Virus record (IMG/VR): IMGVR_UViG_3300028608_000011
Span: 1 to 64,000 of that record
Strand: one strand, 5' to 3'
DNA from: a virus
Length of the DNA: 64,000 nucleotides
A program made the translations under genes and the position numbers. The notes under the pieces were generated by a model. The model was not told where the DNA came from, did not search any database, and worked only from the letters and a program-made list of their open reading frames with translations. How positions within the stretch are numbered: position 1 is the first letter of the stretch; the number at the start of each line of letters is the position of its first letter. Below, piece by piece: positions 5,549-61,467 of the stretch.

Positions 5549-5670
5549 TTAAGTCGGCCCGTGACCCAGTGTACCTCGTCCACGATAGACCCACGGATAA
5601 CGGCCAACGTGTGCTGTAACGGGGCAAGAAGCCCTCGCCGACGCCTACTTCAACGAACGGATTCCAGACC

Positions 5671-5961
5671 ATGCCAAGTGCCAACGCCAACATCCAAGAC
5701 CTGATCACGCTGGTGTCTCGCAACTGCGATATCACCAAAGCGGAGGCCAAGGTCTACATCGAAGCGACCCTGCAAGGGATTGTCCAGCTCGCCACCGACC
5801 GTGACAAACTGACCCTGCGCGAGTTCGGCCGATTCGAGATGCGCCACCACAAGGCCCGGATCAACAGCAAACCGATCCAGGGCGCGCCGGTGGTGATCCC
5901 GAGCCGCGAGCTGCTGCACTTCACCCCGTCGAAGCTGCTGGCCGTGGAGGTTGATTACTGA
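5671..5961 (+). CDS. HU/IHF-family DNA-binding protein
   Basis: The 96-aa protein has the size and pattern of the bacterial histone-like family: N-terminal helices (residues 6-45, including ITKAEA), the FGRFEMR beta segment near residue 55, and a basic arm with R-x-N-x-K followed by PxFTPSK-like residues at the C-terminus. Such proteins bend DNA as dimers. Placed immediately upstream of the packaging genes, it may assist terminase, as IHF does at lambda cos, or organise phage DNA. Its TGA overlaps the ATG of the next gene. Confidence 0.85.
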   Translation: MPSANANIQDLITLVSRNCDITKAEAKVYIEATLQGIVQLATDRDKLTLREFGRFEMRHHKARINSKPIQGAPVVIPSRELLHFTPSKLLAVEVDY

Positions 5962-6578
5962 TGGCTGCTCGAATCACACCCCCACAGCTGACTGTCGGCC
6001 CGGGCGATCCAGGCTGGGATGCACCGGAAGAAGAGATGGCGCCGGACAGCGCGCACCCGGACAACTATCGGCCGATGGCCAGGCCTATTGAGGTGACCAA
6101 CCTGGCTTCGCTGAAGTGGGCTGACCGTGAGGCGTTCGACGCCATTGAGTTGATCTGCACCCAGCTGAAATACGACATGCTGCCGGAGGAGATCCAGCTG
6201 CACATCATCGAGTCCATGTCGGCGAGCACAAAGCGCGCACTGGTCTCGCAGATGGCTGGGCTGGATGCCTCGGTGCTGGTGACGTTCAAGCAGCAGCTGG
6301 CGCTGATCGACGCGGTGTGCGCGCGCGTGGTGAGCCCAGACGGTACGCCGAAGAACAACCACGGTCTGGACATCGGCGTGAAGGACGCGCTGAATATGTC
6401 CATGAAGGTGATCAGCATGCTGGTCAAGGATCTGCCGAAGGTCATCACCCTGGCGCGCGTGCAGCGGCTGGAGATGAGCCTGATGAAGGTTGTCGAGTCG
6501 CTGCCACGCGACAAACAGGACGAGGTGCTTCTGCTCCTCGAGGAAGAAGAACGCAAGGCCGTGAGGGAAGCGAAATGA
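5961..6578 (+). CDS. Packaging-operon protein, possible small terminase
   Basis: The 205-aa product is mostly helical with an acidic C-terminus (EEEERKAVREAK). No clear helix-turn-helix could be assigned, but the position just ahead of the large terminase, with only one gene between, is where a small terminase subunit is usually encoded. The start overlaps the HU-like gene (TGATG), and its own stop overlaps the next start (ATGA). The terminase role is positional inference only. Confidence 0.7.
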   Translation: MAARITPPQLTVGPGDPGWDAPEEEMAPDSAHPDNYRPMARPIEVTNLASLKWADREAFDAIELICTQLKYDMLPEEIQLHIIESMSASTKRALVSQMAGLDASVLVTFKQQLALIDAVCARVVSPDGTPKNNHGLDIGVKDALNMSMKVISMLVKDLPKVITLARVQRLEMSLMKVVESLPRDKQDEVLLLLEEEERKAVREAK

Positions 6579-37050: not shown

Positions 37051-39315
37051 TCACTCTCCTACGTTGACGATGTTTTCGGCCAGCGCCTGGTCTGTCTCGC
37101 GGTGGGTGATCAGCAGCACCTGCTTGGCGCTGACAGCGATCATCGCGGCGAGGGACGCAGCGTTGTGTTCACGGCACGACTCAGTCGGCTCATCGAAGAT
37201 CAGCAGGCTGTCCTTGCCGTACAGTGCACGGGCCAGGCCCACACGCAGTGACACGCCGATCATGGCCTTCTGAGCGCCGGAAGCACTGGCGGTTGGCGCC
37301 ATGATCCCGTCCTCTTCGAACAGGAACTCGCCATCCTCGTTGGTGATCTTGGTGATCAGATCCTTCGAGGCGGTGCGCACCAGGCGGCTGGACACACCCA
37401 TAACGGTGTCCCAGACTTCCTTCAGGTACTGCTGGCGGCGCTCGCGCAGGAACTGCACCAGCCGACCGTATTTCTTGGCCAGCACGGTGTGCTCCAGAGC
37501 CGCAGCGTTGCGAGCCTGCAGACCTTCGAGCTTTTCCTTCGCCAGTTTCAGCAGCTGCGATTGGTGCTTGAGGGTTTGCTCGGCGGCGGCCACTGCCGAC
37601 TGGAGTTCCTGGCGCTTCTCCTTCCACATCGTGAGGGCATCGCGGTAGGTGATCTCCAGAGCTTCAGCTGCGCTCACCTCTTCGTCGGTTGGCGGCTCAG
37701 GCATGGCCTCCAGCTGGTCGTTGAGCAGCTGCAGGGTGACCTCGTTATCAGTCAGCGCCTTCTCAGCCTTGGCCAGGGCGTCCTTGTCGGTGTTGAACAC
37801 CGAGTTGGCTTCGTTCACGCCCTTCAGCTTGGCGTTGAGATCCGCATAGGCCTCGCGGCTGGCCGTCAGTGCAGCGGTGGCTGCATCCAGCTCGGCCTGG
37901 ATCACGTCAGCCTTGCGCAGCTTGGCCAGCGCCTCGGTGTTGGCCTTGTAACCTTCGTTGGCGCTGTCCACGGCCGCTGCAGCCTTGTTGTAGGCAGCCA
38001 GCTTGTCCTGCAGCTCAGTGCGGCGGGACTTGCTGGCGGTGATGCCCTTCTGCAGCTCAGCCACGGACGTCTTGCGACCTTCCCAGTAGACGCGAGCCTC
38101 TTCAGCCTCCGCTGCCAGCTTGACCGGGTCGTGCTCTTCCTTGGCGCGGTTGCAGGTTGGGCACACGGCGCCGTCGGACAGCATGATTAGGTTGTCGTAG
38201 GCACCCTTGGCCTTGCCTACTTCTTCCTGGCGCGCTGCGAGATCTTCCTCGGCGGCAGGGATGGCCTTGTCGAGCAAGGTCACCTCAGCCATCAGCTCGT
38301 CTTCCTCGAACTCAGCCCAGTTGGCGGTGAACTCGACCTGACGGGTGTTCAGCGTGAGATCCGACTCGTCGGTGTCCTGCTGCACAGCCTTGCGGTGTGA
38401 GGCCTCGTCCTGCAGGTTCTTTTCCTTTACCGCCAGCTCTCCGCCAGCAGTCTTGGCTTTTTGCAGCTCAGCCTGCAGCGCCGCAGCGTCTTGCAGTTCG
38501 CGACCTTCAAGACGTTTCTTCGCCTCGTCGACGCGCTCCTGCATGTTTTTGACCTGAACCTCGGCCACGCCGATCTTGTTCGACAGGGTGACGACGTCGG
38601 CCAACTGCTGACGCATTGCGGAGGAGGATGCAGGCTGCTCCATGGTGAACTCGCCGTGCAGATCCAGTGCACCGTTGGCATCTTCCAGCGCAATGCAGGC
38701 CTGCTGTTCAGAGTCGCTCGCTGTCTGCAGGTCACGCTGCACCGCTTCCATGTCCTCGGCAGACACTTCTTTGGCATCGGCTTGGCTGGTGTTCATGGTG
38801 GCCTGACGCTGTGCTTCGACCTGCACCTTGTCGATCAGGTCAACGCCGGCGAACTCTTCGACCTTCTTGTTCAGCGCGGTGGCGCCGAAGTCGAGGATGC
38901 CGGCCGAGGAGCCCTGACGGGACTGCACGAACAGGTTCCAGTCCTTGGCTGCCAGCCCCAGCATTTCTTCCACAGCGGCGGTCACCGGCGTGTTGCCGTT
39001 GGCCACCAGCTCAACGGTGCCGTCGGCATTCAGGCGGCTGAGCTTGGCCGAGTTGTTGTTGCGGGACAGGGTGTAGATCCCGCCGTGCAGCTCGTACTTC
39101 AGCTCGATGGTGAACTTGGTCTGGCCCCAGGTCGGGATGTTTTCTTTCTTGCCTGGCACCACAGTCACACCGAACAGCGCGGCTTCTACAGCCTGCAGCA
39201 GGGTGGACTTGCCGCGAGCGTTGTCGCCGGCGATGACGTTCAGACCGTTGGTGAAATCCGCGGTGAAGTTGCCCAACTTCTTGAAGTGGGTGGTGACGAG
39301 TGATAACAGACGCAT
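37051..39315 (-). CDS. sbcC: SbcC/Rad50-like nuclease ATPase subunit
   Basis: The 754-aa protein has Walker A GDNARGKST at residues 30-38, a long coiled coil interrupted by a zinc hook CPTC near 385, an ABC signature region (SGAQKAMIGVS, about 680) and Walker B LLIFDEPTE near 705. It resembles phage T5 D13 / T4 gp46. With the SbcD subunit (40856-41941) it would process double-strand ends and recombination forks. AGGAGG lies four bases before the ATG. Confidence 0.93.
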   Translation of the reverse strand: MRLLSLVTTHFKKLGNFTADFTNGLNVIAGDNARGKSTLLQAVEAALFGVTVVPGKKENIPTWGQTKFTIELKYELHGGIYTLSRNNNSAKLSRLNADGTVELVANGNTPVTAAVEEMLGLAAKDWNLFVQSRQGSSAGILDFGATALNKKVEEFAGVDLIDKVQVEAQRQATMNTSQADAKEVSAEDMEAVQRDLQTASDSEQQACIALEDANGALDLHGEFTMEQPASSSAMRQQLADVVTLSNKIGVAEVQVKNMQERVDEAKKRLEGRELQDAAALQAELQKAKTAGGELAVKEKNLQDEASHRKAVQQDTDESDLTLNTRQVEFTANWAEFEEDELMAEVTLLDKAIPAAEEDLAARQEEVGKAKGAYDNLIMLSDGAVCPTCNRAKEEHDPVKLAAEAEEARVYWEGRKTSVAELQKGITASKSRRTELQDKLAAYNKAAAAVDSANEGYKANTEALAKLRKADVIQAELDAATAALTASREAYADLNAKLKGVNEANSVFNTDKDALAKAEKALTDNEVTLQLLNDQLEAMPEPPTDEEVSAAEALEITYRDALTMWKEKRQELQSAVAAAEQTLKHQSQLLKLAKEKLEGLQARNAAALEHTVLAKKYGRLVQFLRERRQQYLKEVWDTVMGVSSRLVRTASKDLITKITNEDGEFLFEEDGIMAPTASASGAQKAMIGVSLRVGLARALYGKDSLLIFDEPTESCREHNAASLAAMIAVSAKQVLLITHRETDQALAENIVNVGE

Positions 39316-45147: not shown

Positions 45148-45443
45148 TTGGCTTTCCTTTCTGCTGTGAAGAAGTCTTTGTGGATGGCCGGCCATTTACG
45201 GCGGAACGCCTCAATCCGCCTAGCCATGAGTGACTCGTTGTGCTGGGAGTCAGCGAGCTGCTTGCGCAGCTCACGGACTTTTGCAGCGGTTTCCCGCAGG
45301 CGCTGGTTCTCCACCAGCAGTCGGGTGTTGTCGGCGAGCAGCTGATCAACATCAATCGGCTTGGCTGGTGCGGGATCCGGGAGGTTGAGAACAGCCTCCC
45401 GAAATTTTTCCCACCAGCCGCCCTTAGTCGGCGATGTTTTCAA
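45144..45443 (-). CDS. Coiled-coil protein, 99 aa
   Basis: This frame follows the polymerase gene and overlaps its 3' end by 20 bases. No ATG is available; TTG 45443 is preceded by GAGG six bases upstream. Residues 35-80 form a leucine-rich coiled coil (DQLLADNTRLLVENQRLRET), and the C-terminus is basic. The stop overlaps the next ATG (ATGA). Start codon and extent are uncertain. A DNA-binding or scaffold role is possible. Confidence 0.6.
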   Translation of the reverse strand: MKTSPTKGGWWEKFREAVLNLPDPAPAKPIDVDQLLADNTRLLVENQRLRETAAKVRELRKQLADSQHNESLMARRIEAFRRKWPAIHKDFFTAERKAK

Positions 45444-48400
45444 CCTCCACCTCTTCGTCTTCGTCGGCTTCGATGTAGGTGGCCTTGCGGATCGGATCGA
45501 ACGGTTCCAGCACGTCCTTCTCCCAGATGTCGCGGCCTTCTTCCAGCGCCTCTGCGACAAATTTGGCCACGTTCTCTGGGCTGATGTCACGGCCCAGCTC
45601 CTGCACTCTACCCCAGTCACAGCCGATAGAAAACTCCGGTACTTGTCGAACTTTGTGCCCCGGAGGGGTTGACTCTTCCATGAACCGTCCGACCTCTTGG
45701 CAATACGCCAGAACGTCGTCCTTGTGTACCCACGACACGACTTCATCGTAGATCGGCGCGAAGAACACCATCCGCAGGCGATCCATGATCCCGCTGTCGG
45801 CGATCCGGGTCAGCACGATGCGCAACATCTGCGCGGCGCTGCCCTGGATGGTGGCGTTGGTGCCTTGGCGATGCTGCCGAGCGACCTTGCCGCCGTCGTT
45901 GCTGAAAATGTCCGGCGTAGCGTGACGCTTGGTGCCGAACGCTGTCAGCGTGAAGCCGTTCTTCTCCATGAAGCGGGCTGTCTCTTCCTGCCACGGGCGG
46001 ATCCGCCAGTACAGGGCCATGGTCTGCTCCAGCAGCTGTTTCGCTTCCTCGAATGGTGCGATGAGGTTGCGAGACAGGGTGCCAGCCCCGGCGCCGTAAG
46101 CCATGCCGAAGTTGATCGTCTTGGCCTTGCCGCGAATCGCCACCGCCAGCTTGTGCAGAGGGTGATCCTTGGTGTCCTTGGCCAGGCAGAACTCCATGTA
46201 GTCCATCTTCGCGATACCGGCGCCAGTCATACTGTGCAGGTCTTTCTCGTTGCCTGGTTCATACACCGACAGCATCACCGGGTCGTTGGCGAGGTTAGCC
46301 ATGAGACGGATCTCTTGGCCGTTGAAGTCGATCGCCACACACAAGTAGTCCTTGTTGGGTGGAATGTAGATCGACCGCATGACCTTGCCTTCGCCTTTCT
46401 TCGGCACCTGCAGGCTGTTCGGCGCGCTCGCCGTTGGCCGGGTGGTGTCGGTGCCCGCGTCGGTAACGATCGGGTGAACGTTGCCGTCTCGGTGACGCCA
46501 CATCGGGTACTTGTCGTGGAACAGGCTGCAGCGTGTGCTGGCCGACTTCACCACTCGCAGTACCTGCAGCGCTTCCCGTTGCCAGCAGTCGTTCGGCACA
46601 TCGTTAGCCAGCGCGGTGAGGATCGCTTGCTCATCGGTGGATGGGCCTGCTTCCTTGATGCCGATGGACAGCCGACCTTTGCCTGGCGACTTGCCACGCA
46701 GCCGCACCGGCACGCCAATCTTGCAATACAGCAGTTGCTGCATCTGTGCCGGGCTGCCCACGTTCAGTGGATCGCCGAACTGCACAGTCCGCGGCTCAAC
46801 CCCGGCCAACCGCTGAATCAGCTCAGCCAGCTTGTCAAAAGTCTTTTCCGCGGCTTCCAGCTTGGCACCGTCGGTGTCTTCTGCCGACTCCGACTCTTCT
46901 GCTTTGCGACGTAGGTCACCCATTTTCAGGCAGCCGGCGTTCACCGCCGCGGCGATCATATCGACAACTTCGGCCTGCTCCTTGGTGAGTTTCCACTCAT
47001 CGCGGAAGCCTGCCGCGCCCGCCGCGTCGAACCACTCGGTGATTGCTTTGAGCGTTACCTTCTCGATCTCAGGCAACCCCACCGCCTTGAAGGCCGGATT
47101 CAACTGCAGAGGCGTGAAGGCAAACGTCGGCATCACCGACTCTTCGCGGTACGGCGTGTACTGGCAGGCTGCTTCGACCTTCTTGCGCCACTCTGCGACC
47201 TTGGCCCCGGCCTGATCCACGTCACCATCAGCTTTCTTCTTGGCCGAGCGGAACATGTAGTCCTTCTCGGCTTCGATCAGCGACTTGGCGCCTTCCGTGA
47301 TGTTGCCGGTGACGTTCTTCTCAAGGATCTCGCGAAGCTCGATCATGCCGACGCGGATGGTTTCCAGATCCTTGGTATGGATGCGCTTCTGCAGTGCCCA
47401 GTTCATGTTCGAACCAGCCACGTAGGCACGCTGCAGCACTTCGGTTGGGCGCACTGCCCACTGCTGGTAGAAGTCCCACTGCCCATCCAGTTGCAGCAAC
47501 AGCTGCAGCAGGTCGTGCAGGTGGCCGGTCACCAGGCTGTCATCGGTGCCGTAGGTGAAGGTTTCATCGGCGGTCAGCTCGCACATCATCCGCACGCCTT
47601 GCCCACCGTTACCGGCGGCCAGCGTGTCGGCGAAGGAGGTCTGCTCGTAAGCCAGGTAGTTCAGCGAGATCGCCTTCAGGCCCGCTTCCATGTTTTCGTC
47701 GTAGAACCGCTGCATCATCCGGGTGTCTTGGATGTTTTTCAGCCAGACACCGAGGTTGGTGTGCGAGACCACGCCTTCAAACAAGGCGTTGTGGGCGATC
47801 CGGGTAGTGTGCTCGCCGGCGAATTCCAGAATTTCCAGAATCACCGAGTTGTTCACGTTGGCGCTATCGCGGTGATCCACTGGAATGTAGATCACGTTCT
47901 CCAGATGTCGGCCGAACTGGAACGAGGCACCTGCCAGCTCCTGGCTGAGCATGTCGACGAAGTTGTTGCCCGCCTGAGACGCGCGGCGGAAGTCAGCGAT
48001 CGGGTTCTTGTCCGAGGACTCATAGTCGAACGCGGTCTTGTCGCCTGCTTTGATCTCCTCGAAGATCGCCTCGCGCATCTCGGGCCAGTTGCTGGCGTCG
48101 ACGATCATCGGCACCGGCATCAGGTGGCTGTACTCAGCCTCCCACATATCCTCGCAGCCAACTTCCTTGAGGCAGTTGTACAGCTCGGTGGCGTTCGGCA
48201 CGCGCTTGTGGATCTTCGGCTTGGTCAGCTTGCGCTGGCGAGGTTTCCAGCACAGGTCTGGCTTCAGGTTGGCCAGGCGCCAGCCCATCTTCCAGTCCGC
48301 GAAGTTCTCCTTCAACTTGATCAGGATCTTGTCGCCGGAGGCTTCAATGGTCTCGTCGAGCAGGTCGGTGTTGCCACTTTCGACGATCTCGCACAGCTGC

Positions 48401-49080
48401 TCCAGGCCGTCCACGTCGTACAGCTCCAGCAGCTTCAAGACTTTTGCCGGGCCGAGACCCGTCACGCCTTTATAGTTGTCGGAGTCGTCGCCCATGATTG
48501 ACTTGGCGAAGCTGGTGAAGCGGTATGGCAGGCCCGCCAGCTTGTGCCCTTCGGGGTACACGCCGTCGGCGCCGTAGTGAGCCACGTTCTTCAGGGTGAC
48601 GATGGTGTCACCGTCCACCAGCTGCAGCATGTCTTCGTCGACGGTGTGGATGTCCTTGGCACCCTTCACCATCTGGCAAACCCAGGCAATCAGGTCATCC
48701 GCTTCAACGCCTTCAACGAACATCTGGGTCGCGCCCAGCGCCGAGAAGAAACGCTTGGCCCACGCCATCAGCAGTTTGTACTGCTCGATCTCGATGGGGC
48801 TTTTGTTCTCGTCCTTCTTTTCCTTCTGGCCTTTGTAGGCCGGGTAGAGCCCGAGTCGATAGGCTTTGCCTGCGTCGTGGGCAACCAGCATTTCACGCGG
48901 TGACGCGCCCTGTTCCAGCATTGGGCGGATGTAGCGGGTGAGGAAGTCGGCAGCCGCCGCTTCCCATTCCGCGAACTTGCGATCCAGCTTCACGCAGTGC
49001 AGGGTCTTGTCGCTGACCCCGTAATAAGCGTGTTTAACTGTGGCTCGGAAGTCGATGATTTGTAGAGGGTATTTGTTCAT
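45424..49080 (-). CDS. polA: DNA polymerase I with 5' nuclease domain
   Basis: At 1218 aa this is a large family A polymerase. The N-terminus (about 1-290) is a 5'-3' flap exonuclease with ADDLIAW, DEDMLQ and GDDSDNYKGVTGLGPAKVLK. The middle has a 3'-5' domain with FDYESS and AHNALFEGVV. The polymerase domain has motif A DFNGQEIRL near 915, motif B RGKAKTINFGMAYG near 983 and motif C IYDEVV near 1110. Motif C has Y where most have H. ATG 49080 has AGGAG five bases upstream. Confidence 0.93.
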   Translation of the reverse strand: MNKYPLQIIDFRATVKHAYYGVSDKTLHCVKLDRKFAEWEAAAADFLTRYIRPMLEQGASPREMLVAHDAGKAYRLGLYPAYKGQKEKKDENKSPIEIEQYKLLMAWAKRFFSALGATQMFVEGVEADDLIAWVCQMVKGAKDIHTVDEDMLQLVDGDTIVTLKNVAHYGADGVYPEGHKLAGLPYRFTSFAKSIMGDDSDNYKGVTGLGPAKVLKLLELYDVDGLEQLCEIVESGNTDLLDETIEASGDKILIKLKENFADWKMGWRLANLKPDLCWKPRQRKLTKPKIHKRVPNATELYNCLKEVGCEDMWEAEYSHLMPVPMIVDASNWPEMREAIFEEIKAGDKTAFDYESSDKNPIADFRRASQAGNNFVDMLSQELAGASFQFGRHLENVIYIPVDHRDSANVNNSVILEILEFAGEHTTRIAHNALFEGVVSHTNLGVWLKNIQDTRMMQRFYDENMEAGLKAISLNYLAYEQTSFADTLAAGNGGQGVRMMCELTADETFTYGTDDSLVTGHLHDLLQLLLQLDGQWDFYQQWAVRPTEVLQRAYVAGSNMNWALQKRIHTKDLETIRVGMIELREILEKNVTGNITEGAKSLIEAEKDYMFRSAKKKADGDVDQAGAKVAEWRKKVEAACQYTPYREESVMPTFAFTPLQLNPAFKAVGLPEIEKVTLKAITEWFDAAGAAGFRDEWKLTKEQAEVVDMIAAAVNAGCLKMGDLRRKAEESESAEDTDGAKLEAAEKTFDKLAELIQRLAGVEPRTVQFGDPLNVGSPAQMQQLLYCKIGVPVRLRGKSPGKGRLSIGIKEAGPSTDEQAILTALANDVPNDCWQREALQVLRVVKSASTRCSLFHDKYPMWRHRDGNVHPIVTDAGTDTTRPTASAPNSLQVPKKGEGKVMRSIYIPPNKDYLCVAIDFNGQEIRLMANLANDPVMLSVYEPGNEKDLHSMTGAGIAKMDYMEFCLAKDTKDHPLHKLAVAIRGKAKTINFGMAYGAGAGTLSRNLIAPFEEAKQLLEQTMALYWRIRPWQEETARFMEKNGFTLTAFGTKRHATPDIFSNDGGKVARQHRQGTNATIQGSAAQMLRIVLTRIADSGIMDRLRMVFFAPIYDEVVSWVHKDDVLAYCQEVGRFMEESTPPGHKVRQVPEFSIGCDWGRVQELGRDISPENVAKFVAEALEEGRDIWEKDVLEPFDPIRKATYIEADEDEEVEVENIAD

Positions 49081-49082
49081 GG

Positions 49083-49358
49083 TCACTCCTGAATGAAGAG
49101 GGCGTGCAGTACGGACCCTCCCCCTTGGAGCTGGCACGTACCCAGGTTGCAGTAGTTCTTGCTTGGGTCGAGGTCTTCGCCGGTTACCGCGACATAGATT
49201 TCGGCTGGGACAGTGCGCTGTGTATCGTCTACCAGTGTCCACAGCTGCAACGGCTCCACTTGCCCTGCCTGATGCTGAACTGTGGTATCAGCCGACAGGC
49301 CGCCGGGGACGTGGATAACATTCATGCCTACATTCAGACCGTACTTGAGCATCTTCAT
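49083..49358 (-). CDS. Hypothetical protein, 91 aa
   Basis: ATG 49358 has GGAGG seven bases upstream. The protein is small and beta-rich with two close cysteines (CNLGTC) and no signal peptide or membrane segment. The family is not recognised. It is directly upstream of polA with a two-base gap, so both are co-translated from one mRNA. Confidence 0.7.
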   Translation of the reverse strand: MKMLKYGLNVGMNVIHVPGGLSADTTVQHQAGQVEPLQLWTLVDDTQRTVPAEIYVAVTGEDLDPSKNYCNLGTCQLQGGGSVLHALFIQE

Positions 49359-49360
49359 GG

Positions 49361-49963
49361 TCAAACCTCCGGGAACGCTTTGAAAATAATCTGCAGGCAC
49401 TGCGCCTGATAGCGGGCATCATCCAGCGCATCATGGGCGACACCGCCTTCCCGATCCGGCATGTACAGCCCGCGGGACTCTGCGAACTCCACAAGCGTGC
49501 GCTGGTCACGAACTTTACGAAACGAGTAGGGGACAGCGATACCCTCTCGCTTGTGTGCCTCTTCCAGCCACACGCTGTCACGGTCACCTCGTATCCACAG
49601 CTCACCGGTGAAGTTTGAGTTTCGGCCAATCGGCGTGGTGTCAGCCTGCAGCCATTGCCAGAGGGCGCGAAGGGCGTTGCCGAGGCTGATCCCGCCCTTT
49701 CCTTCCAGCGCAACTTGCTGCGTATTCCGGCTCTGTTCCAGCCACCAGTAGAAAGTGCTTGGGTCTATCGGTGCCTGGCCTTCCAGATTCACCGCGACAT
49801 GGAACTCGTTGCTCACTCCCGCAGGCGGCCCAGCCAGTACCTGATTGGAGGGGTTGGGCGAGAAGCGCACCGCGCCGATCGCAATGATCGGCGCGGCAGG
49901 CCCGAGGCCCGCAGTTTCCAGGTCAATCGACACCGGGTATTCAGCGATGCTCTCGTAGTACAT
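49361..49963 (-). CDS. DEDD 3'-5' exoribonuclease/exonuclease, Rv2179c-like
   Basis: The 200-aa protein has VSIDLETAGL (D/E), RGDRDSVWLEEA in the middle and AHDALDDARYQAQ near the C-terminus, the motifs of the Rv2179c-type family, which includes phage T4 DexA. It could degrade RNA or DNA ends. ATG 49963 has AGGAG seven bases upstream; a GTG at 49969 is less likely. Confidence 0.82.
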   Translation of the reverse strand: MYYESIAEYPVSIDLETAGLGPAAPIIAIGAVRFSPNPSNQVLAGPPAGVSNEFHVAVNLEGQAPIDPSTFYWWLEQSRNTQQVALEGKGGISLGNALRALWQWLQADTTPIGRNSNFTGELWIRGDRDSVWLEEAHKREGIAVPYSFRKVRDQRTLVEFAESRGLYMPDREGGVAHDALDDARYQAQCLQIIFKAFPEV

Positions 49964-49965
49964 CG

Positions 49966-50655
49966 TCACTCTCCTGTCAGGGCGTTCCAGCTGTACGGGA
50001 AGAGGCTCTGCATGATCGGGCCGATCTCGCTGAACAGATCGTTCACTTCGCCCTGAGCGTGAGAGTCGGTGCGTTTGGCGTAGGCCGCGGCGTAGGCGTA
50101 AAGGCTGCCAGTCCAGTACCAGTTCACTTCGCAGCCCTGCGGAAGGGCGAAGCGGGCCTGCTCAGGCGCCACGCCCTGCTTCACCAGATCCTCGTAGAAC
50201 TTGATCATGTCCTCGCAGCGTTGTTTGTACGCCAGAAGCAGGGCAGTGCTGTCAGGGTGAGGCCCAGCACTGCCCTGTTTGACCTTGTCACCATCGGGAG
50301 CCAGGCGGAACTCTTTTGGCACAAACAACACCGGGCGATCGCTGATGTAGCGGCGGCTTTCTTCGTTCTCGACGAAGCCGACCTTGTGCTTGAAGCACTG
50401 GGTACGGATCGGCACCGGCGCCGACATTTTCAGGGTGATCGAGGTGTGCGCGAATGGCGTCCAGTGGCCGTGCTTGGCTAGGTAGTTGATCAGCGCCTCG
50501 TGGGAGCGAACTTTCACGCCCTGCTCAACCGACAAAGCTTCTGCTACCGCTTCGGTCAGGAACATCTGCACCGAATCGTCGTTGGCGAAGCTGACCTTGG
50601 CAGCGCGGACAACCGACAGGTCGTTGCCCATGTGGTCGATATATTCTGCTTTCAT
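49966..50655 (-). CDS. thyX: Flavin-dependent thymidylate synthase (ThyX)
   Basis: The 229-aa protein has the ThyX layout: a central signature KHKVGFVENEESRRYIS, in which the usual R-H-R is K-H-K with one extra residue before NE-x-S-x-R-Y, and the C-terminal segment EQARFALPQG. It makes dTMP from dUMP using methylene tetrahydrofolate and FAD. AAGGGG lies eight bases before ATG 50655. Confidence 0.9.
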   Translation of the reverse strand: MKAEYIDHMGNDLSVVRAAKVSFANDDSVQMFLTEAVAEALSVEQGVKVRSHEALINYLAKHGHWTPFAHTSITLKMSAPVPIRTQCFKHKVGFVENEESRRYISDRPVLFVPKEFRLAPDGDKVKQGSAGPHPDSTALLLAYKQRCEDMIKFYEDLVKQGVAPEQARFALPQGCEVNWYWTGSLYAYAAAYAKRTDSHAQGEVNDLFSEIGPIMQSLFPYSWNALTGE

Positions 50656-54726: not shown

Positions 54727-54950
54727 CAGTAGATCCTCTGTGACCTGCTTCGAAGGATTTTTTCGTGGTCGTCGCGACAGTCCGAATCACAGAAGCGCTG
54801 AGGCTCCGGGAGCGGCTCGTCGCAGTTGTAGCAGCTGCCTTTATAAGCCAGTGTCGCCACCGGCTTACGGGCCAAGCGCAGCTGCTCCTGCAGAATGTTC
54901 TCCTGCTCAACCCCTGCTCTATCAACCGGGTCTGCGTAATTCTCGGTCAT
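54726..54950 (-). CDS. Small zinc-finger protein, 74 aa
   Basis: Residues 40-58 contain CYNCDEPLPEPQRFCDSDC, a four-Cys zinc site of the C-x2-C...C-x3-C type, with a helical N-terminus and a basic C-terminus. It resembles small DksA/TraR-like zinc proteins, although the coiled-coil is short. It overlaps the primase gene (ATGA) and the helicase gene start. A DNA- or RNA-polymerase-binding role is possible. Confidence 0.78.
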   Translation of the reverse strand: MTENYADPVDRAGVEQENILQEQLRLARKPVATLAYKGSCYNCDEPLPEPQRFCDSDCRDDHEKILRSRSQRIY

Positions 54951-57835
54951 TCCTCAGCCTCCGTGTCCTTGATGAAGTTGTTCAACAGCGTCCCTTTTTC
55001 GGTGAGCTTCTGCACACTGATCACGTAGACGTCGATTTCTGGGTTGTGTGGGTGGGGTTCGATGCGCAGGAAGTAAACTTCGCCCTCGATCAACTCGGCG
55101 AGCTGATTGAAGTTTCGGATTACCGCCAGCTCGCCGACGTTTTTGGTGTGGGCTTGATAACGCGGCAGGCAGGATTGCAGCACCAGGTACAGCGAATCGC
55201 CTTGGCGCCAGTAATGCTTGCCTGCCACCAGACGCAGCCGCTCATCGAACGTAGCGTCAGCCAGGGTGTTCATCGTGCTCAGGACGCGGTCAACTTCCGA
55301 GGAAGACTTGCCGCGCTCGACCTCGGTGACTCGGCCGCCGTAGTAGGTGATCAACTCACTTTCCAGCATGCGGACGCTTTCCACGCCGTCGACCTTGAAC
55401 TCTTCCATGGTGTGGATGAGCATGTGCAGTCCAGTCAGGCAGCACATCATTCCCCAGCGCGGCCGCTCCTCGACGCCCTTGTGGATCATGCTCGACTTGC
55501 TGTGCAGGATCTTCAGCAGCGCGCTCGGCGACGTGCCCAGTGCCACAGTGACCAATGCCCGAGCCATCCTCAGCAGAGCTGACCGGTTCTTCACCGCGAT
55601 GCGGTAATTGTCCCGGTAGGTTTGGTTCTGCAGCGCCTTGGCCTGAAGCCGGACTTCTACCGAACGGCTGCGCAGCGCTGGCACCGATGCCGACTGCTCA
55701 CTGGTGTACACCAGCGGCGCCGATACCCGATCTTCGGTCACAGTCAGCTCGCGCTGGCTGTTGATGTTGCCCCGTTGGATCGGCGCGTGGCTCCAAGCTG
55801 CCTTCAGGATGCCGACGATCTGGCCGTAGCGAGTGTTGCCCAGTTGCACCGGGTTCACCTCTTCGATCAGCCGTGGCACCGTCGTGCTGCTGCTCACATA
55901 GCGGGTCAGCGGGAACAGCGTGCCGACCTCCACGTTCTGCAGCTCAGCCTTGTTGTAGTCGATCCCGTTGATCATCGCCATCAGCGTGGCCAGGCAGGAT
56001 TTGCCCGCCCCGGCGTTGCCGAAGATGTTGAGCAGCGGGAATTGAGGCTCTTCGAACTGGATGTGCTGGCGGAAGTGGCACGAGACAAACCACCCCAGCA
56101 TCTGCGCGACCTGAACCGGTTCGTTCACTTCGCACAGGGCGCGGATGGCCTCGGCCAGCTGCTCATCATCCTCCAGCGGATTGCTGCCGCCGATCAATGC
56201 GGGGGACTGCCGAGCATTGCCGTCGAAGCGGAAAGGGCTGCGCCCACCAAGACCGGTGATGGCTGCCCCAGCTTCAACATAGTGCGCGACCGTGCCCCGC
56301 TCGCTGCGATCTAAAACGATCCCGCAGACGTTCGCACGAATCATCTTGTCCAACTCTTTATCCTCAGCCTTTTCCCTGGAAAATTTCAGCAGGGCCACCA
56401 GCATCTTCTGGATTTCTCCGTCGCCGGCGTACACCGCCGCGTCCCGGCCTTTCACCGCCGAGATCAGGTCACGCTTGGAACTCCACGAACGCTCGGACAA
56501 GGCGATCTCGCTGACCGTCTCGCTGCCCGACACCTTGAGGGTGCCGACCAGTTCCTTGCGCTCACTGTTACGCCAGCTGGTATGGCCACTGGCGTTGGTG
56601 TAGGACTCCAGCTCAAACACTTCCAGCGTGGGCCAGAACGTGAAGTTGGTCAGCTGCCGGCTGTTCTCCTCGCCGACCAGGTGATAGCCGCTCTCGTCAT
56701 AGCGGATCCGCACCTCGGAGTTGTAGTTGCCCACGTTCTCCTGAGTGGTTTCGCCACTGGCAACGTCAGATCGGCAGATCGGGCACTGGCGGCAGGGGGT
56801 GCCGATGGTGGCGATCAGCGCGCCGGGAGCGAACTTGATGGAGCCGTTGAAGGTTCGGTGCAGCTGCCCTTGGACATGCTTGAGTCGCTCGACTTCAGAA
56901 GGCCGGCTGCTCGATTCGACATTCTTCACGAATGGCCGAACCAGCGTCTCCATGTACTCCTTCTCTTCCGACTTCTCGTAGCGGGCAGCGATGTACGCTG
57001 CCAGCTGCATGGCCGCTTGGTTCCAGTTTGAGTTGCCTGAATCACCATCGGTGATCAGCTTCTGGATGCAGCCCGGAATACCTTCCCACTCCCGCATCGC
57101 TTCTTTCGGCACGACACAGGCCGCGCTCATGGCCTTCACTTTGCGGGACGCCGCAACGCGGGCAGCCTTCAGCAACTGCTCGGCTTTCGCGTAAGTGACG
57201 TTCTTGCCTGGCTGTGGAGTTGCCAGCGCCGGCCGAGGGGAAGCCACGATGGCGTGGTACTCCTCGCTGTTCATATCGGCCAGCTCGTTCGGCGTGGTGC
57301 CAACCTTGTAGGTGCCGCTGCCCGGGCGAGGAACACCCTCACAACGCCACATCCGGCCACGGCCGCAGGAGTACACCGATTCATCCAGGCTGCACGGCGA
57401 TTGAAGGCCAGCACCTTTGAGGATGGTCAGCATGATCTCGCGGTAGATCATCGGCAGGAACTTTGTAGGCTTCTTGACGCCAAACACCTGAGCCGGGATG
57501 GTGATGTGCACACCCTTGCCGCCGGACAGCCAGCAGTGGATGAACTCAGACGGGATGTCCAGCTTGTTCATCAGGTAGTCAATCACAGCGTTGACGTCAG
57601 CGAGCACCTGATCAATGTCATCGGCGTCGTCGAAGTCCAGGTACATCGGGCCCATGTACAAAACGGTCTCTACAGCGTTGAGACCGTTTTCAGTAACGTC
57701 TTCCGGGTTTTGATCGACCATCAGGACAGTTTTGAACGCAGGCGGGCCTGGAAGCTCAGCTCTCTCAAGCTGCTCTTCTGTGTAAAGCCGCCATGGTTCC
57801 TTCTTGTCCGGTTTGAACTGAAGGAAATAATACAT
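54947..57835 (-). CDS. Primase-helicase (AEP-type primase plus SF3-like helicase)
   Basis: The 962-aa protein combines an archaeo-eukaryotic primase domain (YLDFDDAD at 65-72 with the catalytic D-x-D, then SGGKGVH at 104-110) with a C-terminal ATPase (FGNAGAGKS Walker A near 608, LIEEVNP). A C-x2-C-x2-C zinc-like site (CRQCPIC) is near 347. It would make RNA or DNA primers and unwind the fork. AAGGA lies seven bases before ATG 57835. Confidence 0.9.
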   Translation of the reverse strand: MYYFLQFKPDKKEPWRLYTEEQLERAELPGPPAFKTVLMVDQNPEDVTENGLNAVETVLYMGPMYLDFDDADDIDQVLADVNAVIDYLMNKLDIPSEFIHCWLSGGKGVHITIPAQVFGVKKPTKFLPMIYREIMLTILKGAGLQSPCSLDESVYSCGRGRMWRCEGVPRPGSGTYKVGTTPNELADMNSEEYHAIVASPRPALATPQPGKNVTYAKAEQLLKAARVAASRKVKAMSAACVVPKEAMREWEGIPGCIQKLITDGDSGNSNWNQAAMQLAAYIAARYEKSEEKEYMETLVRPFVKNVESSSRPSEVERLKHVQGQLHRTFNGSIKFAPGALIATIGTPCRQCPICRSDVASGETTQENVGNYNSEVRIRYDESGYHLVGEENSRQLTNFTFWPTLEVFELESYTNASGHTSWRNSERKELVGTLKVSGSETVSEIALSERSWSSKRDLISAVKGRDAAVYAGDGEIQKMLVALLKFSREKAEDKELDKMIRANVCGIVLDRSERGTVAHYVEAGAAITGLGGRSPFRFDGNARQSPALIGGSNPLEDDEQLAEAIRALCEVNEPVQVAQMLGWFVSCHFRQHIQFEEPQFPLLNIFGNAGAGKSCLATLMAMINGIDYNKAELQNVEVGTLFPLTRYVSSSTTVPRLIEEVNPVQLGNTRYGQIVGILKAAWSHAPIQRGNINSQRELTVTEDRVSAPLVYTSEQSASVPALRSRSVEVRLQAKALQNQTYRDNYRIAVKNRSALLRMARALVTVALGTSPSALLKILHSKSSMIHKGVEERPRWGMMCCLTGLHMLIHTMEEFKVDGVESVRMLESELITYYGGRVTEVERGKSSSEVDRVLSTMNTLADATFDERLRLVAGKHYWRQGDSLYLVLQSCLPRYQAHTKNVGELAVIRNFNQLAELIEGEVYFLRIEPHPHNPEIDVYVISVQKLTEKGTLLNNFIKDTEAEE

Positions 57836-59867: not shown

Positions 59868-60677
59868 TTAGTCAGGGATGCCTGTCAGCAGTAGGGCACT
59901 GGCACGCTGCACCAGCTTTGGATCCGCCAGCTGCTTGACGTTGGGCTTGCGCTCGAGGAACTCAGCCGGCAGGTATTGCACCGCGTCAGGGAACTGGGCT
60001 TCCAGGTGCTTCAGGGTGCGAATCGGTGCGAGGATCTTGGTCAGGTCTTCGTACAGTTCGCCGGCAGCGGTGATCACCGCGAAGTACGCCTGCATCAGCC
60101 GGTCTGCCTGAACGCTAAGGGAATAGGCTTCAACGGAGTAGGGCAGGCGGTACTGATCGTCCTTCTTCACCTCGACTTCTGGGTGAAATATTTTGCCCAG
60201 GCCCGGGATGCTGGGGAGATCCGCGTGGCTGCACTTCCAGCTGTAGTGGAAGTCGTAGCTACCGGTGTACTTGTTTGTGAAGTTGAGGAAGCTGCTCCAC
60301 TCCTGCTCCACGGCTTCACGCACCAGCTGCCATTTCTGCATATCTTTTTCGCGTATTTTGCAGACTCCCCGGCCTTCGTAACTGAGGCCGACCTTGCCCA
60401 CCGCCGTGCTCTCGGTGGTGTTGAACTTGTCGTTCGGCTTGACCGTTATGACGTCGATGTTGCCCTTCAGGCTGCTGAAGATGCCGTCCTGAATCAACGG
60501 GGCCCAGCGGCTCTGTGGCACCTCGGGGATCTTCAGCGAGATCTGCTTGGCGAACAGCTGGCGCCAGAGTTTGTCCAGCGCTCGAGCGGCCTTGGTGGTG
60601 CTGGCTGCCTGGCGCTTGGAGGCTTGACGCAGCAATGACACGATCAGGTCGCGTTTGACTTCGTTGGTGATGTTCAT
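59868..60677 (-). CDS. Hypothetical protein, Nmad5-like N-terminus, 269 aa
   Basis: The N-terminal helix (MNITNEVKRDLIVSLLRQAS) and the following Lys/Ala-rich helix resemble the phage family Nmad5 (nucleotide-modification-associated domain 5), but this is from memory of the pattern and needs a profile search. The middle and C-terminal parts are unrecognised. The start overlaps the polymerase fragment gene. If correct, it may hint at a base-modification pathway whose other genes lie outside the window. Confidence 0.65.
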   Translation of the reverse strand: MNITNEVKRDLIVSLLRQASKRQAASTTKAARALDKLWRQLFAKQISLKIPEVPQSRWAPLIQDGIFSSLKGNIDVITVKPNDKFNTTESTAVGKVGLSYEGRGVCKIREKDMQKWQLVREAVEQEWSSFLNFTNKYTGSYDFHYSWKCSHADLPSIPGLGKIFHPEVEVKKDDQYRLPYSVEAYSLSVQADRLMQAYFAVITAAGELYEDLTKILAPIRTLKHLEAQFPDAVQYLPAEFLERKPNVKQLADPKLVQRASALLLTGIPD

Positions 60678-61039
60678 GCTTTACCGCCGTAAATGTTGTT
60701 GAAGTGTTTGAGGATGAGCGGGTACAGCGCTCCGGGTTCTTCGATCTCCAGATCCTTGCGAATCTGTTCGCACTCGGCCTCTGTCCAGATGGCCATGAGT
60801 GCGGCCTCGCTCGGCACCTCCCACATGGCGCCGGGCGTGTAGAGCATCGTGAAGTTCAACGTCTTCCCTACGTTGCTGCGCTGTCGCTTGCAGACCTTGC
60901 TGTAGGGTAGGCCGAGGATCACAGCCGCCGTGATGGTGTGGATGTCCAGCAGCTTTGACGATTTGTACAGCTCCCCGGAGCTGGCCAGCCGCCGCTCGAT
61001 AGCGGCGTAATCGACTTCGTGTTGGATCGGCTTGATCAT
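60674..61039 (-). CDS. Stand-alone family A polymerase motif A-B fragment, 121 aa
   Basis: The protein reads like a cut-out of the Pol I palm and fingers: VDYAAIERRLA corresponds to motif A (D...IE of DYSQIELR), DIHTITAAVILGLPYSKV to the downstream DIHxxTA segment, and GKTLNFTMLY to the O-helix (K-x3-F-x3-Y). R754 of the usual R-x3-K is displaced by one residue, and G after Y is T. Motif C is absent. Start overlaps the membrane-protein stop; end overlaps the next start. It cannot be a complete polymerase. Confidence 0.8.
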   Translation of the reverse strand: MIKPIQHEVDYAAIERRLASSGELYKSSKLLDIHTITAAVILGLPYSKVCKRQRSNVGKTLNFTMLYTPGAMWEVPSEAALMAIWTEAECEQIRKDLEIEEPGALYPLILKHFNNIYGGKA

Positions 61040-61467
61040 TTATGGGCCTCGGGGTCTTTGATGTGCTTGTCGAACAATTTCTTGTGACGACGAGCAAAGC
61101 GGGCGGTGTGGGCGATGGCATACAACAGGGCCAGCGACAGCACGATAGGGTAAAAATTTACGGTGACGCAGATAGCCATCGGAATAGCCCCGACAACTAC
61201 ACACGATCGCGCAAGCAGGTCGGCGCCGCGAATATCCTCCTTGCCTTCCTTCTGGAATCGCTCGTAGGAGTCGCTGTACTCGTAGCCGCACAGCGTGCCG
61301 ATCAACGTCATCATCGGCCATGGGCCTTCAGGCTTGCGGTCATCTACCCATAACAGCGCGGTTTTCACCGCCTCTGTGGCTGCCGAGAGGGTGAAGAACA
61401 GCGCGGCCATTGCCACGCCCATCAGGATCATGGCGAGGAACATTCTTTCCGGTGGTAGATCAGTCAC
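61036..61467 (-). CDS. Membrane protein, 143 aa
   Basis: GTG 61467 has AAAGGAG eight bases upstream and overlaps the upstream stop (GTGA). Three or four hydrophobic segments are visible at about 9-33, 45-55, 75-95 and 97-115, followed by a basic tail (RRHKKLFDKHIKD). It is an inner-membrane protein without a recognised family. Such a membrane protein in an early block may affect the host envelope or exclude other phages. Confidence 0.7.
   Translation of the reverse strand: MTDLPPERMFLAMILMGVAMAALFFTLSAATEAVKTALLWVDDRKPEGPWPMMTLIGTLCGYEYSDSYERFQKEGKEDIRGADLLARSCVVVGAIPMAICVTVNFYPIVLSLALLYAIAHTARFARRHKKLFDKHIKDPEAHK

Follow-up and report, generated by a model that had tools for sequence, protein, structure and literature searches.

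A small stand-alone phage gene resembling the fingers (O-helix) region of family A DNA polymerases

In the Klenow polymerase, H734 and F762 are substrate contacts. A 50-residue peptide fragment of DNA polymerase I (Pol I), said to span about residues 728–777, was reported by Mullen, Shenbagamurthi and Mildvan in 1989, according to the title of their work, to bind substrate and DNA. In Pol I, the triphosphate is contacted by an arginine and a lysine of the O-helix, and a tyrosine has a role in the active site (PMC4256020). Extra PolA copies described in a survey of phage polymerases are divergent but contain the palm, and polymerase swapping is documented in phage clades including Saclayvirus (PMC11348598). 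Nmad5 (nucleotide modification associated domain 5, PF18757) is predicted to function in base modification, and a change in Nmad5 alters sensing by the Tmn defence (PMC11846954).

The window analyzed in this study comprises 64,000 nucleotides of a virus (positions 1 to 64,000 of IMG/VR record IMGVR_UViG_3300028608_000011). It contains both a complete family A polymerase gene and a small gene, here referred to as the mini-gene, which encodes only a part resembling the polymerase fingers. The features concerned are as follows.

60674–61039, minus strand: mini-gene, an open reading frame for a stand-alone fingers/O-helix protein of 121 aa (DNA_pol_A, 2e-5; seven same-site copies including the window; purifying selection)
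60995–61012, minus strand: motif A remnant, residues 10–15 (DYAAIE), with D10 and E15 retained; invariant in the seven Pseudomonas-type copies and missing from most shorter copies
60938–60940, minus strand: H34, corresponding to Klenow H734; invariant across all 16 aligned mini-proteins, Y in Molly
60839–60880, minus strand: O-helix, residues 54–67 (RSNVGKTLNFTMLY), with R54, K59, F63 and Y67; R, K and Y in 16 of 16
60677–60838, minus strand: tail, residues 68–121, with a family-specific TPGA.WEVP segment; conserved within the family
61036–61039, minus strand: ATGA overlap of mini-gene start and upstream gene stop, read directly
60674–60677, minus strand: ATGA overlap of mini-gene stop and downstream gene start, read directly; in the relative L026 this site consists of one ATGA, without a mini-gene
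59868–60677, minus strand: downstream coupled gene for an Nmad5-family protein (269 aa), PHROG label 'DNA polymerase' (phrog_15487, 7e-53)
61036–61467, minus strand: upstream coupled gene, by its sequence a likely membrane protein; present in L026 and L009, absent at the site in L007 and L008
45424–49242, minus strand: complete family A DNA polymerase of the phage (Pfam 5_3_exonuc_N, DNA_pol_A_exo1, DNA_pol_A)

The mini-gene runs from an ATG start at 61039 through 121 codons to a TGA stop ending at 60674. The preliminary description had given this frame without its strand, which is minus; the frame itself is real. Its further readings agree with ours: the gene has its own start and stop overlaps, an ATGA at either end; D and E of motif A are kept (D10 and E15); and in the O-helix motif R...K...F...YG the K, F and Y are kept as K59, F63 and Y67, while the R is retained at a shifted spacing (R54 lies five residues ahead of K59, compared with the canonical four) and T68 occupies the position of the polymerase G. 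Also as described, motif C and both exonuclease domains are absent from the 121-aa gene, together with a complete palm and the thumb. Because motif C is missing, the mini-protein would be without a metal site, and polymerase activity by itself is not expected. The tail of the window protein has no reliable similarity to polymerases; an assignment to the next fingers helix, strong in one of 25 shuffle tests, is not claimed.

Residues 9–70 match positions 157–222 of 381 in Pfam DNA_pol_A (PF00476) in a single-sequence search, with a score under the curated cut-off because only this part of the profile is covered. A profile built from six homologues and searched against all PDB sequences retrieved family A DNA polymerases only (best E = 3.6e-6). 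On these profile matches, the mini-protein is homologous to the motif A-to-O-helix region of family A DNA polymerases. The AlphaFold2 model is all-helical and of modest confidence (mean pLDDT 71), with a disordered motif A region. Family A polymerases made up all 50 Foldseek matches listed against the PDB, with weak E-values and TM of about 0.3, so that the predicted fold of the free protein is not established. The copy of Pseudomonas phage PMBT3 was the only significant match among viral models, and the weak ones include the mini-proteins of phages CX5 and Aci02-2. Five BFVD entries of 59–147 aa (A0A7S6RBU0, A0A6S6MFH7, A0A6J4EKI9, A0A4D6T490, and A0A6B9SXQ8) are weak structural matches and possibly further members.

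An intact full polA had been noted beside the fragment, and we identified its domains: the open reading frame (45424–49242) encodes 1272 aa from a GTG start, with 5′-3′ exonuclease, 3′-5′ exonuclease, and polymerase domains and motif C in the form IYDEVV. The window mini-protein is 36% identical to E. coli PolA and 26% to this polymerase, and because of this difference the source of the fragment, as judged from residue identity, is not the phage's own polymerase but lies nearer the canonical bacterial-type Pol I. Other mini-proteins are likewise nearer canonical Pol I than the own polymerases of their phages. In a short-alignment tree they form three weakly placed groups, and the polymerases that the Pseudomonas phages themselves encode fall in none of these. 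A duplicate of the phage's own enzyme was rejected as the source on both grounds. In the own family A polymerases of Saclayvirus (L083–L085), a long insertion separates the D.H motif from the O-helix; the mini-proteins of the same phages are without it.

The mini-gene might also belong to a split polymerase, as an exon joined by splicing or as a subunit that is complemented in trans. Such an arrangement is suggested by Bacillus phage SBSphiJ4, whose polymerase is annotated in pieces with an O-helix open reading frame of ~100 aa between two larger ones; this phage looks like a case of a split polymerase gene and was dropped from the mini-gene set. For the window phage the explanation is extremely improbable: a search of the whole window record found no polymerase piece besides the complete gene and the mini-gene, the complete gene retains its own O-helix, and the mini-gene overlaps unrelated genes on both sides.

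By tblastn, the mini-gene was identified in the Pseudomonas phages Lana and PMBT3, where it is annotated as a hypothetical protein, and scans of IMG/VR revealed four further same-locus copies (L007, L008, L009, and L051). Stand-alone status was checked on stop-to-stop frames and assigned to a separate gene of at most about 130 aa outside a longer polymerase frame. The seven copies at this locus, including that of the window, encode 120–127 aa and are all located directly upstream of the same Nmad5-family gene. In most of them the mini-gene start overlaps the preceding stop; in PMBT3, 17 bases lie between the genes. None of the seven is within a longer polymerase gene, so that the case named as refuting in the preliminary description, homologues found only inside longer polymerase genes, does not apply at this locus.

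Judged by the downstream gene, L026 (75% identity) is the phage most closely related to that of the window, and it is without the mini-gene: its upstream and downstream genes meet in one ATGA, and a search of the rest of the record found no copy. The mini-gene was not found in UAntarctica either. These empty sites mark the mini-gene as an accessory module that phages gain or lose whole. The upstream gene, whose L026 counterpart is a likely membrane protein at 5570–6004, is itself present or absent among relatives, and the site is therefore a modular cassette of coupled genes. Between L008 and L009 the mini-genes are 75% and the downstream genes 62% identical, whereas in pairs such as window–Lana the downstream gene is more alike than the mini-gene; these contrasts suggest exchange between phages. 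No relative of the Pseudomonas-type mini-gene was found in the GTDB bacterial contigs searched.

Selection on the frame was estimated with the Nei–Gojobori method and a codon bootstrap for the 21 pairs among the seven same-locus copies. Whole-gene dN/dS is 0.30–0.75 in 20 of 21 pairs, the remaining pair being PMBT3–L009 (1.01), and that of the coupled downstream gene is 0.37–0.61. In the core, dN/dS is mostly 0.2–0.5, with P(dN ≥ dS) < 0.02 in 19 of 21 pairs. The fingers core and the TPGA.WEVP segment are the most constrained parts, and the N-terminal third is variable except for D10 and E15. The mini-gene is thus under purifying selection, contrary to the other refuting case of the preliminary description, a frame without such selection; the constraint is moderate but real. 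Mini-genes of Saclayvirus have dN/dS mostly of 0.1–0.2 among close copies. Seven stand-alone homologues at one locus together with this codon constraint exclude a chance open reading frame.

These data also bear on whether the mini-gene is the decaying remnant of a lost or replaced polymerase gene. Polymerase swapping in phage clades including Saclayvirus (PMC11348598) and the absence of the mini-gene in L026 are consistent with such decay, which is nevertheless very unlikely given that seven diverged phages have the frame intact and at similar length, that it is under purifying selection, and that several phage groups keep a similar core. Domestication of a polymerase fragment, one of the possibilities offered in the preliminary description, is well supported because homologues at the locus are always stand-alone and the frame is under purifying selection.

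Mini-genes were also identified away from this locus. Records carrying the downstream gene contain diverged mini-genes in L041 (104 aa) and L042/L054 (83 aa), and one of 80 aa (L053) came from a further scan, so that those on metagenomic contigs span 80–104 aa overall. About 20 records of Saclayvirus phages of Acinetobacter, reached via weak matches, carry a mini-gene of 55–69 aa. The Pectobacterium phages CX5 and PPWS2 (Corkvirinae) carry one of 60 aa, annotated as 'DNA polymerase' in PPWS2, and Maribacter phage Molly one of 103 aa. Pfam matches of all shorter mini-proteins include about profile positions 184–220. A similar O-helix core is, on these alignments, maintained as a stand-alone gene in several unrelated phage groups. 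PHROG 38792 (62 aa) and 30466 (122 aa) also match and may be further members. Candidates L022, L055, L058–L068, Kc259, L082, L089, and L090 were dropped as full polymerases. The protein of Maribacter phage Molly_1 (gp187, L092 1195–1506) is extended at its C-terminus by a segment with paired cysteines (CNNPNC...CSSRC), which may be a metal-binding tail.

Sixteen diverse mini-proteins were aligned to E. coli Pol I, and the Molly protein was read by eye. Equivalents of D732, H734, R754, K758, and Y766 are invariant in all 16; those of V749, T750, Q753, and N761 are nearly constant, and F762 is loosely kept. G767, standard in polymerases, is lost in 13 of the 16. Molly retains D, R, K, and Y and has Y for H734. 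Motif A occurs in the longer, Pseudomonas-type copies only, plus a degraded form in the Pectobacterium type, and motif C is never present in any mini-protein.

These comparisons lead us to a reading that we hold with about even confidence, namely that the mini-gene encodes a fingers (O-helix) module without catalytic function that acts on DNA synthesis or nucleotide handling by binding dNTP and/or primer-template. Phages would have acquired this module from a polymerase of the canonical Pol I type and retained it as an accessory protein. Its O-helix face (H34, R54, K59, and Y67, corresponding to Klenow H734, R754, K758, and Y766) may bind dNTP and/or primer-template DNA, and the bound module may modulate DNA synthesis or nucleotide handling during infection without polymerizing. 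Binding is suggested, indirectly, because the triphosphate-contacting residues are the most constant across diverse copies and, by analogy, because the 50-residue Pol I peptide is reported by title to bind substrate and DNA. Part of this constancy could be inherited, since polymerases too hold these residues more strictly than most others. A canonical triphosphate geometry cannot be taken for granted, because the arginine precedes the lysine by five residues, one more than usual, both in the window protein and in five of the six copies nearest to it; PMBT3 has the canonical spacing. Against binding also count that F762 is not strictly kept, that Molly has Y for H734, that a metal site is missing along with motif C, and that the AlphaFold model superposes poorly on polymerases (pLDDT 71, TM about 0.3). 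In a wider and only tentative form of the same idea, phages may repeatedly have made the Pol I nucleotide-binding helix into free-standing proteins of ~50–130 residues that sense, sequester, or deliver dNTPs or block a polymerase active site.

Alternatively, the mini-protein might be a decoy or regulator, a mimic of the Pol I fingers acting by protein contact or template competition that inhibits host Pol I or tunes the phage's family A polymerase. Its closer similarity to bacterial-type Pol I than to the phage's own enzyme fits this explanation, as does the location of the Pectobacterium copies, which sit with other small left-end genes close to the end of the genome. A full family A polymerase is present in every near-complete carrier tested (window, Lana, PMBT3, L008, L009, L051, L042, five Saclayvirus, CX5, PPWS2, and Molly), and family B was found in none of 12 records tested; such co-occurrence is weak evidence, however, as family A polymerases are common in phages, and L026 has a full polymerase but no mini-gene. 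To our knowledge, the Pol I O-helix has no partner except substrate and template. On balance, we regard the decoy or regulator explanation as doubtful.

The genes flanking the mini-gene allow a further explanation. Nmad5 (PF18757) was matched by 11 of 13 aligned homologues of the downstream gene (best 1.6e-11), and the window protein itself has no match to this Pfam model, which is insensitive. The gene is labelled 'DNA polymerase' in PHROG and some records and 'DNA polymerase A' in PMBT3; a polymerase-like identity is unsupported, and its homologues match Nmad5. The downstream protein model is confident and has no significant PDB match. If the mini-protein were a partner of this Nmad5-family protein in nucleotide or DNA modification, the role of its O-helix face would be to keep a nucleotide in place for the modifying complex. 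For each of the seven Pseudomonas-type copies, the next gene downstream is the Nmad5-family gene, in most cases across an ATGA overlap, and such a gene also lies a short distance downstream of the diverged L041 copy; the Nmad5 assignment itself comes from homologues. Such a partnership is nonetheless unlikely: the Nmad5-family gene occurs without the mini-gene in L026, UAntarctica, phCDa, and KPP25; L042 has both genes about 12 kb apart; and in the Saclayvirus and Corkvirinae phages with mini-genes no Nmad5 was detected with the insensitive Pfam model, which also misses the window copy. The two genes are not obligately linked.

Elsewhere in the window, on the minus strand, are genes for a ThyX-type thymidylate synthase (49966–50655; Pfam Thy1, 2.4e-38), directly followed by an Rv2179c-like exoribonuclease gene (49361–49969), and an SMC/RecN-like ATPase of 754 aa (37051–39315; Pfam SMC_N, 1.4e-9). 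A 962-aa protein without Pfam match (54947–57835, minus strand) keeps its place beside the helicases in UAntarctica, Lana, and PMBT3.

In the papers on Lana and PMBT3, text searches turned up no reference to a polymerase gene, and no description of stand-alone O-helix proteins was found in the literature searched. In the mini-genes, one subdomain of a thoroughly studied enzyme, separated from the catalytic centre, is apparently under selection as a small protein of its own in several unrelated phage groups. If dNTPs or template ends are bound, this protein would be a minimal natural nucleotide-binding module and a new phage route to act on DNA synthesis. The shortest copies have 55–66 residues, and binding and mutants are therefore testable by peptide synthesis. 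Automatic annotation is affected as well, with mini-genes filed as hypothetical or wrongly as 'DNA polymerase'.

Similar to family A DNA polymerases (Pol I, PF00476), the mini-protein has the motif A-to-O-helix sequence and equivalents of H734, R754, K758, and Y766; different from them, it represents one subdomain, without motif C, thumb, or exonuclease. The synthetic peptide of Mullen and colleagues covers about the same stretch as the shortest natural copies, and the 55-aa Saclayvirus protein is close to it in span; the peptide is a laboratory fragment and not a gene, and binding by the phage proteins is a proposal. Compared with the Nmad5 family (PF18757), to which the mini-gene is coupled in Pseudomonas phages, there is no detectable relation between the proteins, and each occurs alone. 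The mini-genes share with divPolA1 and divPolA2 of phages that they are extra, divergent PolA-related genes beside a regular polymerase; different from the mini-proteins, which have no palm, divPolA1 and divPolA2 retain the palm catalytic domain and are described as probably active (PMC11348598).
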